From Chloroflexota bacterium (lineage in GTDB: Bacteria > Chloroflexota > Anaerolineae > Anaerolineales > Anaerolineaceae), in the NCBI GenBank assembly GCA_016887485.1, contig CP069394.1:1426001-1490000 (forward strand): 64,000 bases of DNA, in the 5' to 3' direction. Shown piece by piece: positions 1 to 51,355 of the stretch (position 1 is the first letter of the stretch; every line of letters begins with the position of its first letter). A model generated the notes under the pieces. The model made no database searches, was not told where the DNA came from, and saw only the letters and a program-made list of their open reading frames with translations. Made by a program: the position numbers and the translations under genes.

Positions 1-182
1 TCATCGCCATCTGGGATGGAGAGCCGGCTCAGGGTATTGGTGGCACAGAAAATATCGTTGCCCTGGCACGCGAGAGGGGCATTTCACTGGTTTGGATCCA
101 TGCCGGCAACCGCCGACCGGGGACCGACAAGCCAACGAGCCTTGGCCACGAGCAGGGCCAGGTCAGCTTTGAAGGGCTATAG
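1..182 (+). CDS. C-terminal end of a SLOG/LOG-like protein (partial)
   Basis: The frame starting at base 3 is open from the window edge and stops with TAG at 180-182, giving 59 residues. The segment AIWDGEPAQGIGGTENIV followed by LARERGISLVWIHAG looks like the last strand-helix-strand of SLOG/LOG-like Rossmann proteins, where a WDG/GGT loop precedes a final VVWI strand. Such domains bind nucleotide-like ligands and often lie near TIR genes. The family call rests on this short tail only, and the N-terminal part lies outside the window. The next gene starts 41 bases downstream on the same strand, so the two may be co-transcribed. Another open frame across 16-234 gives a low-complexity translation and was not accepted. 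Confidence 0.5.
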   Translation, partial: IAIWDGEPAQGIGGTENIVALARERGISLVWIHAGNRRPGTDKPTSLGHEQGQVSFEGL

Positions 183-1784: not shown

Positions 1785-2102
1785 ATGGATCGCGCCGTGT
1801 ATGTGTGCTATTCAACCAGAGATAAAACGGCCACGGATCAGGTCGTGAGACCGATCGACGATTGCAATAAGGTGTTCACCTTTTATTCCCCTTCTTATCT
1901 GGACTCCAAAGTGTGCCTTGAGGAATTCAACATTGCCCTTTGCCGACATAGAGAGTCAGACGACCCTGTTTTATTACCGGTCTATCTCTATTCCGCCATC
2001 CTGCCCACTTATATTCGGCTCGTACAATTCTCAGATTGCCGCGAGTTCAACCTGGGTAAATTTCCAGAAATTGCACAGAATTTCATCAACACCCTTCGAT
2101 AA
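1785..2102 (+). CDS. Shortened TIR-like protein, possibly a deletion relic
   Basis: The product has 105 residues, while a TIR domain normally needs about 130-150. It begins like strand A of a TIR domain (VYVCYSTRDKTATDQVV) but jumps after about 25 residues to the second half (KVFTFYSPSYLDSKVCLEEF, then VLLPVYLYSA and the DCREF end). The stretch holding most of helix A, strand B and the BB loop is missing, while the CLEEF helix with acidic residues E46/E47 remains. It starts 22 bases after the larger TIR gene. Either an in-frame deletion or a join of two TIR subfamilies fits. Without a BB loop, normal TIR assembly is doubtful, so this may be a decaying gene. No frameshift is visible. Confidence 0.5.
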   Translation: MDRAVYVCYSTRDKTATDQVVRPIDDCNKVFTFYSPSYLDSKVCLEEFNIALCRHRESDDPVLLPVYLYSAILPTYIRLVQFSDCREFNLGKFPEIAQNFINTLR

Positions 2103-5037: not shown

Positions 5038-6750
5038 CTAATTATCAATTTGAAGGCCAATTTCAGCCAACAATTCAGGCAGGCAGCGGATGAAATGGCG
5101 GTTCTTCTCGCGCTCCTCCGGTAGCAGGTCCTCCCAAGGGATAAGATCCGGATTGGTTTTTTGGCCGCTGTCCTGGACCTCGCCATGCTGCCAGCCCTGG
5201 TCACGCTTCCAATCGCACCAGAGTTGGTGCTCCATTTTACCCATCAGTTCCACATCCTGATGGTCAAATTCCCTATCCGCAGCATCCCAATCGATCAGGG
5301 GCGAGACCTGATAGCCATTTTCGCTCAATATCCGGTAAATCCGGCTGGCTTGGGCCCGATTGGCTTGCTTCTCGTCCTCTTCAATTTTCTCCCAGGGGGT
5401 CGCCAACTGCCGCTTTGCATCTGCGGTATCCAGCCCTTTGAGATAATACTCCCGCAACTGCCGGGCCACCAGTTCATGGGTACCGCCAATGACTAACTCG
5501 TGCGTGCAGGTCTGCTGGTAAATATCGAAGAAATGACCATCCTGATGATTTTCCAACAGATAGGTCATGCCTGAACCCTGTTCAATCCGGGTTCTGATCG
5601 GAATGTCCTTATTTGAAAGGATCTGCCTGATCACCAGGAATACCTGTACACTTAAAACCGGATTTCCCAGACAGATGAAGACTTCCTCAAGCTTTTTCCT
5701 CTTCAATAAGGTAGTTAACTGGCTTCTCAAATCCGAATTGCAGCTCAAATCAATATTGACCGGTTGAAACTGGAAAATCGTGTCAACCTTGGGGCAATGG
5801 GCACGCAATTCGGCCAGTCGGGCATCCGCTTCCTGATCCAAAACGATCATATTGACCTTGCCCGTGAATTTCCTCCGATAAAGAGTGTAGGCCATCTGTC
5901 GGATGAGGCCTTTACCAAAGCCACCCAGGCCGCAGACCAAAAAGCTCATCGGTTTGCTATTGGATTCATCTGCTAATATGGAATCTTCCTGAATTAATTG
6001 CTGGGCTGCCCGATCATAGGTGTTGAATACCTCCCACACCACATTGGACTCTGCAGCCAGGGATTGTTCGCTCGCCCGGACCACTTCCATCAGATCACGG
6101 GAGACAAAATGCACCAGACAGGTCAGTTTATCCTGGGGTTCTCTCCGGATGAGATGGGCCGCCAGGAAAGCCACTTGCAGGTTTTGGGAATCATCCCCCA
6201 ATAGGCAAATGAGAGTCTTTGCCCGGTTGATACGTGCATTTTCCAACATCTCCGGGTCAGTCGCATCACCCTCCAGGATGATCGCCCCTCTGCGCTGATA
6301 TTCCTCCACGATCACCGGGGTAACCTGCTGCTCGATGACCACCACCTGATAGCCGCTGGCAAGCAGGTCATCCACCAGAAAACGTCCCTTGCGGCCAAGA
6401 CCACAGACGACGATATGTCCCTTCTTACGCCACAGCCGCAGCCAAACGGTCTGCTCCCGGAAGATGGTCGCCAAGGCTTCCAAGGCCGTGATAGCGGTCA
6501 AACCTGGCAGGGCAAAGCGGGCCCCTTCCAACATCCAATTGTTCACGCCATCCACGGCACCGGAGTTCATGCTGATCAATTGAAGCGTGCGATAGAGGAT
6601 CTCGGTGGAAGATTGATCAAATTGGTTGGCAAAGGCATACCTTTCAAACCCCCAATATCCCAACAGGAAGCTGGCAGCCCATAAAACAGCCAGGATACCC
6701 CATTTGAACTTCGCCCAAATTCGCTTGACCGTTATCCGCTGAATATTCAT
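5038..6750 (-). CDS. Two-RCK (TrkA-N) channel-like protein with C-terminal RyR domain
   Basis: The protein has 570 residues. A membrane helix lies at about 15-36 and a second hydrophobic segment at 78-97. Between them is a pore-like stretch (LYRTLQLISMNSG) without the TVGYG filter of potassium channels. Two TrkA-N/RCK Rossmann domains follow: one with VVCGLGRKGRFLV from residue 114, and a second with FLVCGLGGFGKGLI from about 269. The last 70 residues (ending 570) match the RyR repeat of ryanodine receptors: EHQLW, then GWQHGEV, PDLIPWEDLLPEE and KNRHF. RCK domains bind nucleotides or ions and gate transport. The ion is unknown and the absent filter argues against a plain K+ channel. Confidence 0.8.
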   Translation of the reverse strand: MNIQRITVKRIWAKFKWGILAVLWAASFLLGYWGFERYAFANQFDQSSTEILYRTLQLISMNSGAVDGVNNWMLEGARFALPGLTAITALEALATIFREQTVWLRLWRKKGHIVVCGLGRKGRFLVDDLLASGYQVVVIEQQVTPVIVEEYQRRGAIILEGDATDPEMLENARINRAKTLICLLGDDSQNLQVAFLAAHLIRREPQDKLTCLVHFVSRDLMEVVRASEQSLAAESNVVWEVFNTYDRAAQQLIQEDSILADESNSKPMSFLVCGLGGFGKGLIRQMAYTLYRRKFTGKVNMIVLDQEADARLAELRAHCPKVDTIFQFQPVNIDLSCNSDLRSQLTTLLKRKKLEEVFICLGNPVLSVQVFLVIRQILSNKDIPIRTRIEQGSGMTYLLENHQDGHFFDIYQQTCTHELVIGGTHELVARQLREYYLKGLDTADAKRQLATPWEKIEEDEKQANRAQASRIYRILSENGYQVSPLIDWDAADREFDHQDVELMGKMEHQLWCDWKRDQGWQHGEVQDSGQKTNPDLIPWEDLLPEEREKNRHFIRCLPELLAEIGLQIDN

Positions 6751-6899: not shown

Positions 6900-6970
6900 T
6901 CGGGTGAAATTTATCACAAATGTGGGGTTGGTTTTTATTACCCCAACCTTTTGATTTAAGGAGTGTTTTT

Positions 6971-9427
6971 ATGAAGACCATTATTATTGGGGGCGTGGCC
7001 GGTGGGGCCAGCACAGCTGCACGGTTACGCCGGATGGACGAAAAGGCTGAGATCATCATCCTCGAACGAGGACCCTATATCTCATTTGCCAACTGTGGCC
7101 TCCCATATTATATCGGTGAGGTTATTTCGGAACGCGACAAATTGCTGGTTGTGACGCCCGAAAAACTCAAGGCGATGATGAACATCGATTCCCGGGTTCT
7201 CAATGAAGTTGTCAGCATTGATCGCAAGAAGAAATCCGTGAAGGTTCGCAACCTTGAAACCAACACGACCTATGAAGAGACCTACGATAAACTCGTGCTC
7301 TCCCCCGGCGCCGGCCCCATCGTGCCGCCGCTGCCCGGTGTGGATTTGCCCGGTGTTTTCAGTTTGCGTAACCTGCCTGATATGGATAAGATCAAGACCT
7401 TCGTTGATGAGAAAAAACCCGCCCGCGCCGTTGTGGTCGGCGGCGGTTTCATCGGCCTGGAAATTGCCGAAAACCTCGTCCACCGTGGCGTGGAAGTCAC
7501 TCTGATTGAAATGCTGGATCAGGTTATGGCGCCCATTGACTATGAAATGGCTGCCCTGGTGCACCAGCATTTGACCTTCAAGCGGATTCGCCTGGCACTC
7601 GGTGATGGACTGAAAGCCATTGCGACCGGAAAAGCCGGCTGGATGGAAGTTGAACTCTCCAGCGGCCGCAAGGTTGACACCGAGATGGTGATCCTCTCCA
7701 TCGGCGTCCGCCCGGAGAACAAACTGGCGAAGGATGCCGGTCTTGACTTGGGTGTCCGCGGCACTGTCGTAACCAACGAACATATGCAGACCTCCGACCC
7801 CGACATCTATGCCGTCGGCGATGCGGCTCAGGTGATGAGCCGGTTGACCGACAGCCCAACCGCCCTCGCCCTGGCAGGCCCTGCCAGCCGTGAAGGCCGA
7901 GTGGCTGCGGATCACATTGCCGGGAACAAGAAATCCGTCTTCCCCGGTGTGATCGGCACTTCCGTGGTGAAGGTCTTTGACCTGACGGTCGCTTCGGTCG
8001 GGATGAACGCCAAGACCCTCCAACAGGCGGAGATCCCTTTCCAAAATGTCATCATTCATGCCTCCAACCATGCCGGCTACTACCCTGGCGCTTCACCAAT
8101 GGCTTTCAAACTCCTTTTCAACAAAAAGGGTAAGATCCTGGGAGCGCAGGTCGTAGGTATTCATGGCGTTGATAAGCGAATTGATGTCATCGCCACAGCC
8201 ATGCAGGCCGGCATGACCGTTTTCGACCTCGAAGAACTTGAACTGGCCTATGCGCCGCCCTTCAGCTCTTCCCGTGACCCCGTAAATATCATCGGCTTCA
8301 CTGCTGCCAACATTCTGCGCGGCGATGCCCGTGTGATGACCTGGGACCAGGTGAAAACACTGGATCGCAGTAAAGTCACCATCGTGGATGTCCGTTTGCC
8401 GGAAGAGCTCGCTCTCGGCATGATTGATGGCGCCATCAACATCCCGCTGCAGAGTGTTCGCCAGCAGATCAACGAAATCCCCAAGGACCGTCCCGTACTG
8501 CTTTACTGCCAGACCGGCCAGCGTTCCTACTTTGCCTCCCGGATCCTCAACCAGCTTGGTTTTGAGGCCTATAACCTGACCGGCGGCTATAAGACCTATT
8601 CGCATGCGGTTGGACGCCAGTCCAATTTTGACGTCTTTGAGCATGTAACGATCAACAGCCGGGAAGAGATCAAGGAAATCCCACCCATGGCCATCACCTC
8701 CGGCAGCGAGTTCTCGGTGGATGCCTGCGGGCTGCAGTGCCCCGGCCCCATCCTGAAGCTCTATAACAAGATCAAAGAGGTCAATGAGGGCGATGTCGTC
8801 AAGGTTCAGGCCACCGATTTCGGCTTCACCTCCGACGTGGAAGCCTGGGCCAACTCCACCGGCAACCGCCTGCTCTCACTGGATACCGTCAACGGTGTGA
8901 TTGAAGCCCGGATCCAAAAGGGTGCCCCGAAAGTCGCTGAACCCGGTAAAGCCATGGGCATGAACAAGACTCTGATCATGTTCTCAGGTGATTTGGATAA
9001 GGCGCTGGCTGGCTGCATCATCGCCAATGGCGTTGTTGCTTCCGGTCATAAAGCCTCGATCTTCTTCACCTTCTGGGGCTTGAACCTGCTCCGTAAGAAT
9101 GAGCATGTCAGTGTCAAGAAGAACCTGATCGAGCGGATGTTCGGCTGGATGATGCCCCGCGGCACCAAGAAAGCCCAGCTCTCCCAAATGAGAATGGCCG
9201 GGATGGGCACTGAGATGATCAAGAGCATTATGAAGAAGAAAAACGTCGATTCCCTGCCTGTGATGCTGCAGACCGCCATTGATAACGGGGTCAAGATCCA
9301 GGCCTGCCAGATGTCCATGGACCTGATGGGGATCAAGCGGGAAGAACTGATCGATGGGATCGAAGTGGTTGGCGTGGCATCCATGCTGGCCGACTCCGAC
9401 GACTCCAACGGCGTGATCTTCATCTAA
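6971..9427 (+). CDS. CoA-disulfide reductase / rhodanese / TusA / DsrE fusion oxidoreductase
   Basis: The ATG at 6971 follows AAGGAG; a frame reaching back to 6920 adds only non-conserved residues. The 818 residues carry four modules. The first is an FAD/NAD(P)H disulfide oxidoreductase (about 1-445) with the IIIGGVAGGASTAARLRR nucleotide motif, redox C42 in FANCGLPYYIGE and a second GGGFIGLE motif. The second is a rhodanese (about 455-545) with catalytic C513 in LLYCQTGQ. The third is a TusA/SirA domain (about 580-650) with the CPGP motif in CGLQCPGPI. The last is a DsrE-like domain (about 660-818). Related enzymes reduce CoA-disulfide, CoA-persulfide or polysulfide and pass sulfur between cysteines. 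A cytoplasmic role in persulfide handling or sulfur reduction is likely; the substrate is inferred. Confidence 0.9.
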   Translation: MKTIIIGGVAGGASTAARLRRMDEKAEIIILERGPYISFANCGLPYYIGEVISERDKLLVVTPEKLKAMMNIDSRVLNEVVSIDRKKKSVKVRNLETNTTYEETYDKLVLSPGAGPIVPPLPGVDLPGVFSLRNLPDMDKIKTFVDEKKPARAVVVGGGFIGLEIAENLVHRGVEVTLIEMLDQVMAPIDYEMAALVHQHLTFKRIRLALGDGLKAIATGKAGWMEVELSSGRKVDTEMVILSIGVRPENKLAKDAGLDLGVRGTVVTNEHMQTSDPDIYAVGDAAQVMSRLTDSPTALALAGPASREGRVAADHIAGNKKSVFPGVIGTSVVKVFDLTVASVGMNAKTLQQAEIPFQNVIIHASNHAGYYPGASPMAFKLLFNKKGKILGAQVVGIHGVDKRIDVIATAMQAGMTVFDLEELELAYAPPFSSSRDPVNIIGFTAANILRGDARVMTWDQVKTLDRSKVTIVDVRLPEELALGMIDGAINIPLQSVRQQINEIPKDRPVLLYCQTGQRSYFASRILNQLGFEAYNLTGGYKTYSHAVGRQSNFDVFEHVTINSREEIKEIPPMAITSGSEFSVDACGLQCPGPILKLYNKIKEVNEGDVVKVQATDFGFTSDVEAWANSTGNRLLSLDTVNGVIEARIQKGAPKVAEPGKAMGMNKTLIMFSGDLDKALAGCIIANGVVASGHKASIFFTFWGLNLLRKNEHVSVKKNLIERMFGWMMPRGTKKAQLSQMRMAGMGTEMIKSIMKKKNVDSLPVMLQTAIDNGVKIQACQMSMDLMGIKREELIDGIEVVGVASMLADSDDSNGVIFI

Positions 9428-45717: not shown

Positions 45718-45750
45718 AGGGACTTTTCCGCCTTAACGAAAAAAGTCCCT
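45718..45750 (-). terminator. Stem-loop at the 3' end of the rRNA operon
   Basis: AGGGACTTTT and AAAAGTCCCT pair perfectly around a 13-base loop directly at the 5S 3' end. The T-run lies inside the arm, so this may be a terminator, a processing site or both. Confidence 0.5.
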
Positions 45751-45867
45751 TGGCGATGACCTACTCTCCCGGGGGGCTACCCCCCAAGTACCATCAGCGC
45801 TGGCGAGCTTAACGACCGGGTTCGGGATGTTACCGGGTGTACCCTCGCCGCTCAAATCACCAAGGGA
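45746..45867 (-). rRNA. rrf: 5S ribosomal RNA
   Basis: About 122 bases. The ends pair (TCCCTTGG / CCAAGGGA), and the inner blocks CCGAACCCGGTCGTTAAG and GGGAGAGTAGGTCATCGCC are typical. It is the last gene of the operon. Confidence 0.93.
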
Positions 45868-45956
45868 CAATTTCACAAAATAATGTTAAAGATACCAATG
45901 AATAATAACGACATTTCAATTGTGGCGAAAAAGCAACGAGTTCTCCACATCACGTG

Positions 45957-48920
<2,964 letters not shown>

Positions 48921-49178
48921 GTGATGCGGAGAAATCGATGCTCTTTCATATATGCATCATTATCTTGCAATCACTTGCTAATAATTTTATAAATTGAAAT
49001 CTTTTTTAGATTTCGGCCTACAATTTGATGTCATTACTATTCAATTGGTAATGTGCAGTTGGCTTTGCAGCCAATTCGCCGGTTGACCGGCGATGGTCGC
49101 CGCTTATAGACTTACATATTGCAGCAACCATCTCATGTCAACCATATTCGTCCAACTCTGGGTTATGAGCCCAGCATA
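48921..49178. other. 23S-tRNA spacer
   Basis: This transcribed spacer holds no gene. It carries one arm of the 23S processing stalk near 48915-48930. Confidence 0.6.
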
Positions 49179-49251
49179 TGGAGATGATGGGACTCGAACC
49201 CACGACCTCCGCCTTGCAAAGGCGGCGCTCTCCCAACTAAGCTACATCCCC
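49179..49251 (-). tRNA. tRNA-Ala (anticodon TGC)
   Basis: 73 bases. The acceptor arms GGGGATG and CATCTCC pair, the anticodon loop is TTTGCAA, and the T-loop GGTTCGAGTCC is present. Confidence 0.96.
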
Positions 49252-49283
49252 GTTAGAGATGTACCCAGCCCTGCCGGGCACAG

Positions 49284-49357
49284 TGGGCCATTCTGGACTC
49301 GAACCAGAGACCTCGCCCTTATCAGAGGCGCGCTCTAACCAGCTGAGCTAATAGCCC
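49284..49357 (-). tRNA. tRNA-Ile (anticodon GAT)
   Basis: 74 bases. GGGCTAT opens the acceptor stem, the anticodon loop is CTGATAA, and TGGTTCGAGTCCA forms the T-arm. It lies between 16S and tRNA-Ala, the standard order. Confidence 0.96.
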
Positions 49358-49496
49358 AATTGAGGGTCAACCTTAACCCCTGAAAAGTGATAGGAAAACT
49401 TATTCCTTCGTGCAATGCATACCTCCCACCGCTGAGAGGTACCTTTTATTTGGAGTGACGTCCACGCCCTTGGGCGTTTCAGTATGTGCTCCTTAG

Positions 49497-51010
<1,514 letters not shown>

Positions 51011-51355
51011 AAAAATATCGCCTAAAAAGGCGTTTGGGTCAATCTATTGTTTGCGGAAGTTAGATCTGATTCGATCTTATCTTTCATTGACGAGGTTTGT
51101 CATCTTCCTATCACTTTTCAGTTGTTAAGGTTCTAACCTTTAAGCGAGTGCTGATTCTACTCGAGTTATCTGCTGGCGTCAATCCCTTTCGTACATGAGT
51201 TTTTCGCTTTCAGACAAAAGCGCCGATGTCTTCTCGCCAACACCGGCCGCCTCTCTCGAAGTGCTACAGCAATTGTCTTTCGTCTCGCTTGGTCTTAAGT
51301 TTTCAAGGATCTGCTCTTTGCAGGCAAGATCATCTCCCCGTTTTAGGGGAAATTC
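51011..51355 (-). other. rRNA operon leader
   Basis: About 345 bases lie between the promoter and 16S. No protein gene is supported here; short plus-strand frames are accidental. Leader antitermination and RNase III sites are expected in such a region but were not assigned. Confidence 0.55.

Follow-up and report, generated by a model that had tools for sequence, protein, structure and literature searches.

P0001 is a protein of 570 residues encoded on the minus strand (ATG start) at positions 5038..6750 of a 64,000-nucleotide stretch of the genome of a Chloroflexota bacterium (contig CP069394.1). This whole stretch is called the window, and its first position is 1426001 of the contig (C1 of genome G000). 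The gene was characterized from its open reading frame and with Pfam, AlphaFold2 and Foldseek. On the combined evidence of sequence comparison and structure prediction, P0001 is a tandem-RCK protein that ends in a pair of ryanodine receptor (RyR) repeats of the Repeat12 (R12) type, and each subunit would consist of a pore loop between two membrane helices, a gating-ring unit of tandem RCK domains and the C-terminal R12. We judge it slightly better than even, with a probability of about 0.55, that P0001 is a ligand-gated cation channel that works with a TIR/SLOG/R12 conflict system, probably directed against phage, and that its R12 senses an adenine or ADP-ribose nucleotide. Because the relatives of this protein often adjoin genes for TIR immune signaling, it could serve as the ion-channel component of an immune system in bacteria.

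Predicted domain architecture

The assignment of an R12 pair to a tandem-RCK protein is made because Pfam, a PDB sequence search, homologue alignments, an AlphaFold2 model examined with Foldseek and a profile match to RyR1-3 all point to it. An earlier note on this DNA, made from the sequence, had placed a RyR repeat in the last 70 residues. In an HMM search PF02026 matches the whole protein at 55.7 bits (cut-off 27.4; E 5.8e-15), in two stretches. The one at residues 500-569 is the repeat that had been noticed; another repeat precedes it, so that the C terminus holds a pair. The first repeat (R1) spans residues about 417-485 (5296..5502; alignment and model) and the second (R2) residues 497-569 (5044..5262; Pfam, PDB search and model), all coordinates within P0001 being on the minus strand. 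Tandem repeats are also visible in the homologue alignments. The PDB search returned a RyR1 chimera first (6uhi, E 4.6e-15), followed by RyR1 and RyR3 constructs, and the matches also included a "putative ryanodine receptor" (6uag/3nrt). A C-terminal profile built from ten family members matched the full-length RyR1-3 chains, best of all RyR3 with E 3.3e-34. So strong a match would be compatible with the suggestion of the earlier note that the protein may bear on how the animal RyR repeat originated. A chance similarity to RyR is ruled out by the Pfam score, the PDB search and this profile match.

The two RCK domains proposed in the earlier note are likewise borne out. RCK1 (residues 112-260, 5971..6417), which carries the Rossmann motif GLGRKG, is placed by Pfam, alignment and model, with a TrkA_N match at residues 113-200 (E 1.9e-20). 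RCK2 (residues 268-408, 5527..5949), for which no Pfam match of its own was found in P0001, is assigned from the alignment, the model and fold matches.

The AlphaFold2 model is a predicted monomer with a mean predicted local distance difference test score (pLDDT) of 82.3 and a predicted template-modeling score (pTM) of 0.70. Its best Foldseek match is GsuK (4gx1/4gx5, E 6.5e-11), and it also matches human RyR3 Repeat12, AMP-PCP complexes included, with E about 5e-6 to 1e-5 (6uhb at 4.7e-6; 9ls7 was also matched), as would be expected of the RyR-like fold that the earlier note had anticipated. Four helices of the model (417-440, 458-477, 497-517 and 544-563) form the R12 cleft. P0001 therefore has in common with the animal Repeat12 the tandem repeats, the modeled four-helix cleft and an HxxW in R2, but its R12 is borne by a bacterial membrane RCK protein, its R1 loop is shorter than that of R2 and R1 has Y in place of W.

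The component parts of this protein are known, but the RCK-R12 combination, the type of filter and the linkage to TIR look new. No report of an RCK-R12 channel was found among the best matches listed (titles and abstract beginnings) from the open-licence PMC literature. Portions of PMC8195603, PMC7016017, PMC9503650 and PMC7159879 contain no bacterial RyR channel, and excerpts of PMC4530471 do not mention bacteria, by the terms searched.

Membrane part and filter

Transmembrane helix 1 (TM1) lies at residues 2-41 (6628..6747) in the AlphaFold2 secondary structure and the inner helix, TM2, at residues 72-108 of the model (6427..6537). Between them the model and conservation in 30 homologues place a pore helix and filter at residues 48-64 (6559..6609). 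The membrane part of P0001 thus models as TM1-pore helix (48-60)-TM2, the topology of a channel with two transmembrane helices. It had been described as short and without a K+ filter. The canonical TVGYG is indeed absent, but the description has to be corrected to a predicted channel fold with a conserved filter motif.

All 30 homologues whose pore match is strong have Y53 and L58, 29 have Q57, and S63 and G64 are present in 28 each; the pore loop thus holds some of the best conserved residues in the membrane part. At residue 62, E occurs in 18 of these proteins, Q in 5 and N in 3, and 4 have another residue. The family motif may be written E/Q/N-S-G, with TLESG as its commonest form (9/30), and P0001 has SMNSG at residues 60-64. 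A larger alignment comprised 50 frames: 44 with R12 plus a pore or RCK, one that is the pore-only half of a split gene and 5 R12-only proteins of ~600 residues. In this set only the more distant relatives L038 and L057 have TVGYG, at the aligned filter place, and for this reason we argue that the loop of the P0001 family is a true filter. The ion conducted by P0001 would likely not be strictly K+.

P0001 shares the TM1-pore loop-TM2 arrangement with channels of the GsuK and MthK type, and tandem RCK domains with GsuK, but it is without TVGYG and adds the R12 pair. The plant proteins CASTOR and DMI1 resemble P0001 in having an RCK ring without TVGYG, and their gating rings are among the top VIA matches of the model; the filter of CASTOR, which is Ca2+ selective according to a part of PMC6697748, is AD(S/A)GNHA and differs from SMNSG. 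The common TLESG recalls TLESW, given in an excerpt of PMC7041947 as a motif of bacterial sodium channels. The TLESW filter sits on a voltage-gated channel of six transmembrane helices, and P0001, with two membrane helices in the model, is not of this NaV type. Because a voltage sensor is absent, we take the likeness as a resemblance only.

It is also conceivable that P0001 does not conduct and is instead a two-helix-anchored RCK/R12 regulator of another transporter, as TrkA is for TrkH. TrkA (4j9u) and KtrA (5but) stand with GsuK at the top of the VIA matches, less than 1 Z apart, and the filter of P0001 is not a known type. Nevertheless, the high conservation of the pore-loop residues and the TVGYG of L038 and L057 at the aligned place argue against such a regulator, and we consider it quite improbable.

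The R12 pocket and its candidate ligand

The earlier note rightly treated the ligand and the transported ion as open questions, and both are narrowed here by the conserved non-TVGYG filter and by the nucleotide binding of R12 described in portions of PMC12627627 and of a 2026 preprint, PMC13232231. Adenine nucleotides are known to bind R12 pockets; in that of human RyR3, the adenine of AMP-PCP is stacked by W880 and dantrolene by W994 (PMC12627627, excerpts). Phage proteins with R12 domains bind or cleave isomers of cyclic ADP-ribose (cADPR) made by TIR proteins. One of them, RyDEP, is a glycosidase that hydrolyses 2'cADPR and 3'cADPR. Its H75 and D117 contact the terminal ribose, and the adenine and the phosphates are contacted by W78 and H100, respectively; 6 of 8 tested homologues bound 2'/3'cADPR and, despite high sequence conservation, none but RyDEP hydrolysed it (PMC13232231, excerpts).

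These positions were carried over to P0001 by the ungapped spacing H, +3, +25, +42, which equates H75 with H508, W78 with W511, H100 with N533 and D117 with N550. The PF02026 domain and the equivalents of H75 and W78 are common to both proteins; RyDEP differs in being a small phage protein that forms a homodimer (PMC13232231, in part), and P0001 has N at the places of D117 and H100. Of the 50 aligned frames, 47 have H at position 508, and at position 511 there are 41 with W and 6 with F. Position 550 is mostly D (33 frames) or N (12), and position 533 mostly S (22), H (14) or N (7). In R1, position 433 is H in 46 frames and position 436 is Y in 44. At the HxxW positions R2 of P0001 has H508/W511, and R1 has R433/Y436 where the family mostly has H/Y. 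With regard to the catalytic pair of RyDEP, H508 is present in P0001 but N550 stands at the D117 place. The stacking residues and the histidine are thus kept across the family, whereas about a third of its members, P0001 among them, no longer have the catalytic acid. In P0001 this favors binding over catalysis, although this protein may be a drifted copy.

If R12 were instead an enzyme or a sink, P0001 would hydrolyse or sequester the TIR signal as a membrane-tied off-switch like phage RyDEP. The frequency of the H75 and D117 equivalents across the family and the glycosidase activity of RyDEP (PMC13232231, in part) are consistent with this notion, but P0001 itself has N550 and R433, and hydrolysis was seen with none of the homologues tested apart from RyDEP (same excerpts). 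Since R12 is fused to a gating ring, sensing is suggested, and we give the off-switch little credence.

Channel genes and their neighbors

To characterize gene neighborhoods, we scanned 62 loci with local profiles for the pore, RCK, R12, AAA-R12, SLOG-like, TIR and RelA/SpoT-TPR. Channel frames were defined by R12 together with a pore or RCK in one frame, which yielded 44 of them (the frame-split copy in L044 was counted once), and gaps to partners were measured between stop-to-stop frames. A partner was present within 10 kb of 26 of the 44 channel frames: TIR for 16, AAA-R12 for 9, SLOG-like for 7, the RelA/SpoT-R12 type for 6 and other R12 proteins for 4, with several possible for one frame. 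One Pfam TIR, next to L057 (G663), went undetected by the local TIR profile. Fifteen of the 44 channels had a partner frame on the same strand within 100 bp, L035 only by way of a 29-bit TIR match. In a second comparison, which used 26 genomes picked for RyR or channel matches and not for TIR, 12 of 27 channel places had a Pfam TIR_2 match no more than 10 kb away, whereas a random scatter of TIR genes would be expected to give 0.35. The neighborhood of TIR and other R12 genes around the channel is non-random. Three R12 architectures (RCK-R12, AAA-R12 and RelA/SpoT-TPR-R12) recur with TIR and SLOG-like genes. In the locus of the nearest relative, L032 (44% identity to P0001), genes for AAA-R12, SLOG-like, RCK-R12 and TIR-WD40 follow one another in that order on a single strand. 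In three genomes of one phylum, G664 and G666 (both titled as Acidobacteriota/Acidobacteria) and G710, the channel stretch is partnerless and another contig has AAA-R12, SLOG-like and TIR genes together (L080, L081, L082).

At the locus of P0001 itself the gene order is AAA-R12, to the left of the window, then a SLOG-like gene that runs into the window, then TIR, all on the plus strand. The AAA-R12 protein has 906 residues, an AAA-type ATPase region with Pfam scores just under the cut-off and a C-terminal RyR domain, the second at this locus (G000:C1:1425395-1425598). Its AlphaFold2 model is poor (pLDDT 58.6), and in Foldseek its first match was RyR R12, with adenosine kinase matched weakly (E 3.7e-3). 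The SLOG-like gene encodes 184 residues (G000:C1:1425628-1426182, equal to L003:13629-14183), and its 3' end occupies positions 1..182 of the window, ending at about 182. A SLOG-like profile found nothing significant in the PDB, the best matches being GAPDH (E 0.084) and YpsA (E 0.36), and the relatives in L038 and L049 match YAcAr at 2e-4 and 0.006, both under the cut-off. P0004 (224..1762), a putative signal maker, combines a TIR domain (Pfam), a transmembrane segment read from the sequence and an LVIVD propeller. A glutamate at a position that we take to be the catalytic place of TIR is kept in all 20 aligned TIR sequences of at least 75 bits, P0004 included. Just past this gene, a 115-residue frame (window 1839-2042, plus strand) has a weak TIR match of 26.6 bits to model positions 43-109 and is a possible TIR remnant.

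P0004 matches the ThsB models of PADLOC (best E 1.8e-6) and, better, a SAVED-TIR model (E 5.6e-11). The locus resembles Thoeris in that a TIR protein, the likely nucleotide maker, adjoins a candidate effector. However, a Pfam scan of nine proteins from the locus turned up no SIR2 or Macro domain, so that an effector of the ThsA type (SIR2-SLOG or Macro-TM) was not found among them; here the candidate effector is an ion channel. Assignment to Thoeris was rejected because the known ThsA was not found. Burroughs et al. reportedly described, in 2015, nucleotide-centric conflict systems of SLOG and SLATT proteins. These systems reportedly share SLOG-like, TIR and RelA/SpoT proteins and membrane partners of two transmembrane helices with the P0001 set, in which an RCK-R12 channel replaces or accompanies SLATT.

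Several observations weigh against a ligand-gated channel that serves such a conflict system. At its own locus P0001 is on the opposite strand, at a distance of 3.3 kb from the TIR frame, 4.9 kb from the SLOG-like one and 5.4 kb from that of AAA-R12; it has no PADLOC match at E <= 0.01; and the SLOG assignment is weak, the SLOG-like gene matching YpsA at E 0.14 only. Position 62 of P0001 is N and not the commoner E. The pocket of P0001 may have drifted, as judged from R433 where 46 of 50 frames have H and from N550 at the place of the catalytic D117. Eighteen of the 44 channel frames are partnerless within 10 kb (9 of the 18 with less than 3 kb of flank on a side), no Pfam TIR lies within 10 kb of 15 of the 27 channel places, and TIR_2 is not matched at all in four of the 26 genomes, all drafts (G174, G660, G667, G668). 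Finally, the clustering with TIR could be plain co-residence in defence islands, which the null of random scatter ignores.

The partnerless frames and the genomes without TIR would suit a homeostatic, GsuK-like channel in which RCK and R12 sense NAD+, ADP or ATP and TIR is nearby only because both reside in shared mobile genomic islands. Such a channel would also be in keeping with the Rossmann motif retained by RCK1 and with GsuK, the best Foldseek match, whose activation by ADP and NAD+ indicates that adenine nucleotides can gate tandem-RCK rings (PMC3510474, in part). The recurrence of three R12 architectures with TIR and SLOG-like genes, the 15 channels with a same-strand partner within 100 bp and the sporadic distribution of the gene are not what this explanation would predict, and we regard it as rather unlikely.

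A possible mechanism

If P0001 is a ligand-gated channel of a TIR/SLOG/R12 system, infection would lead the TIR enzyme to make from NAD+ an adenine nucleotide, of the ADP-ribose type or another. By closing its cleft on this nucleotide, R12 would act through the RCK ring to open (or shut) the pore, and the resulting upset of the membrane potential would halt the infected cell. For P0001 we infer the tetrameric state, the identity of the ligand, the direction of gating, the permeant ion and the outcome for defence. A more specific version, which we offer tentatively and believe less readily than the general one, is that the TIR protein makes a cADPR isomer, that R12 is its direct receptor and that the E/Q/N-S-G pore then carries a non-K+ current that stops the spread of phage.

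It has long been asked whether cADPR acts on ryanodine receptors and, if so, where. The specific version, if true, would be a bacterial counterpart of this disputed link in animals. The RyDEP preprint raises the question again (PMC13232231, in part), and a small bacterial R12 channel adjoining a TIR gene would be a tractable test of it. In addition, if the proposed mechanism is true, an ion channel joins the TIR-linked effectors, and E/Q/N-S-G is an additional filter type for RCK channels with two transmembrane helices.

Distribution and other relatives

PF02026 was found in 14 of the 298 genomes of the class, the P0001 genome included. A profile of the C-terminal part (A2, E <= 1e-8), which takes in non-channel R12 proteins too, was present in at least 10 of 400 genomes of the phylum, again including this one. 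In the phyla of G664, G665, G662 and G663 it was found in at least 9/247, 10/246, 14/246 and 10/240 genomes, respectively, centres included. All of these A2 phylum counts are lower bounds, about the first 8 to 13 candidates having been scored per genome. A2 was found in none of the nine further genomes listed from this genus or family, with part of the candidates scored in some of them, and five of the nine, with all candidates scored, were also negative for PF02026. L037, whose translation contains a string of X, was used neither for A2 nor for a further profile, A3; L039 and L042, which have an extra C-terminal R12, were included in A2 but not in A3. Records with relatives (17 loci) come from Chloroflexi/Anaerolineae, Zipacnadia, Actinomycetota, Verrucomicrobiia, Acidobacteriota, Planctomycetota and Desulfomonile; seven of these loci (L047, L048, L051, L052, L053, L056, L063) are contigs already in the set and were not recounted. 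Because the RCK-R12 gene is patchy, it was probably acquired horizontally.

A channel borne by a plasmid or phage was also considered and rejected. There were no plasmid matches at E <= 1e-8; only a 15% stretch was matched in phage, by two records of Arthrobacter phage Xenomorph, and none of 25 candidate viral-contig stretches was confirmed.

Other arrangements of these domains were observed among the relatives. In L098 an AAA-R12 gene is followed by one for a SLOG-like/SLATT_3 fusion protein, with SLATT_3 under the Pfam cut-off. RelA/SpoT-TPR-RyR proteins (L035:5985-8474 and L092:5214-7880) also match LSDAT ("SLOG in TRPM"), above the cut-off in L035 and below it in L092; it is possible that they represent a nucleotide synthetase tied to an R12 sensor. 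At L070:9778-12123 (minus strand) a serine/threonine kinase domain (Pkinase, E 3.3e-39) is joined to RCK and RyR, so that a kinase takes the place of the pore. A 263-residue TrkA_N protein with a hydrophobic N-terminal part and without R12 (L036:8321-9121, minus strand) adjoins AAA-R12 and SLOG-like genes, and perhaps stands in for the channel.

Elsewhere in the window, positions 6920-9427 (plus strand) encode a protein resembling CoA-disulfide reductase, with rhodanese, TusA and DsrE-type domains in a single chain. An rRNA operon comprising 16S, two tRNAs, 23S and 5S at 45748-51012 (minus strand) accounts for a stretch that is poor in open reading frames.
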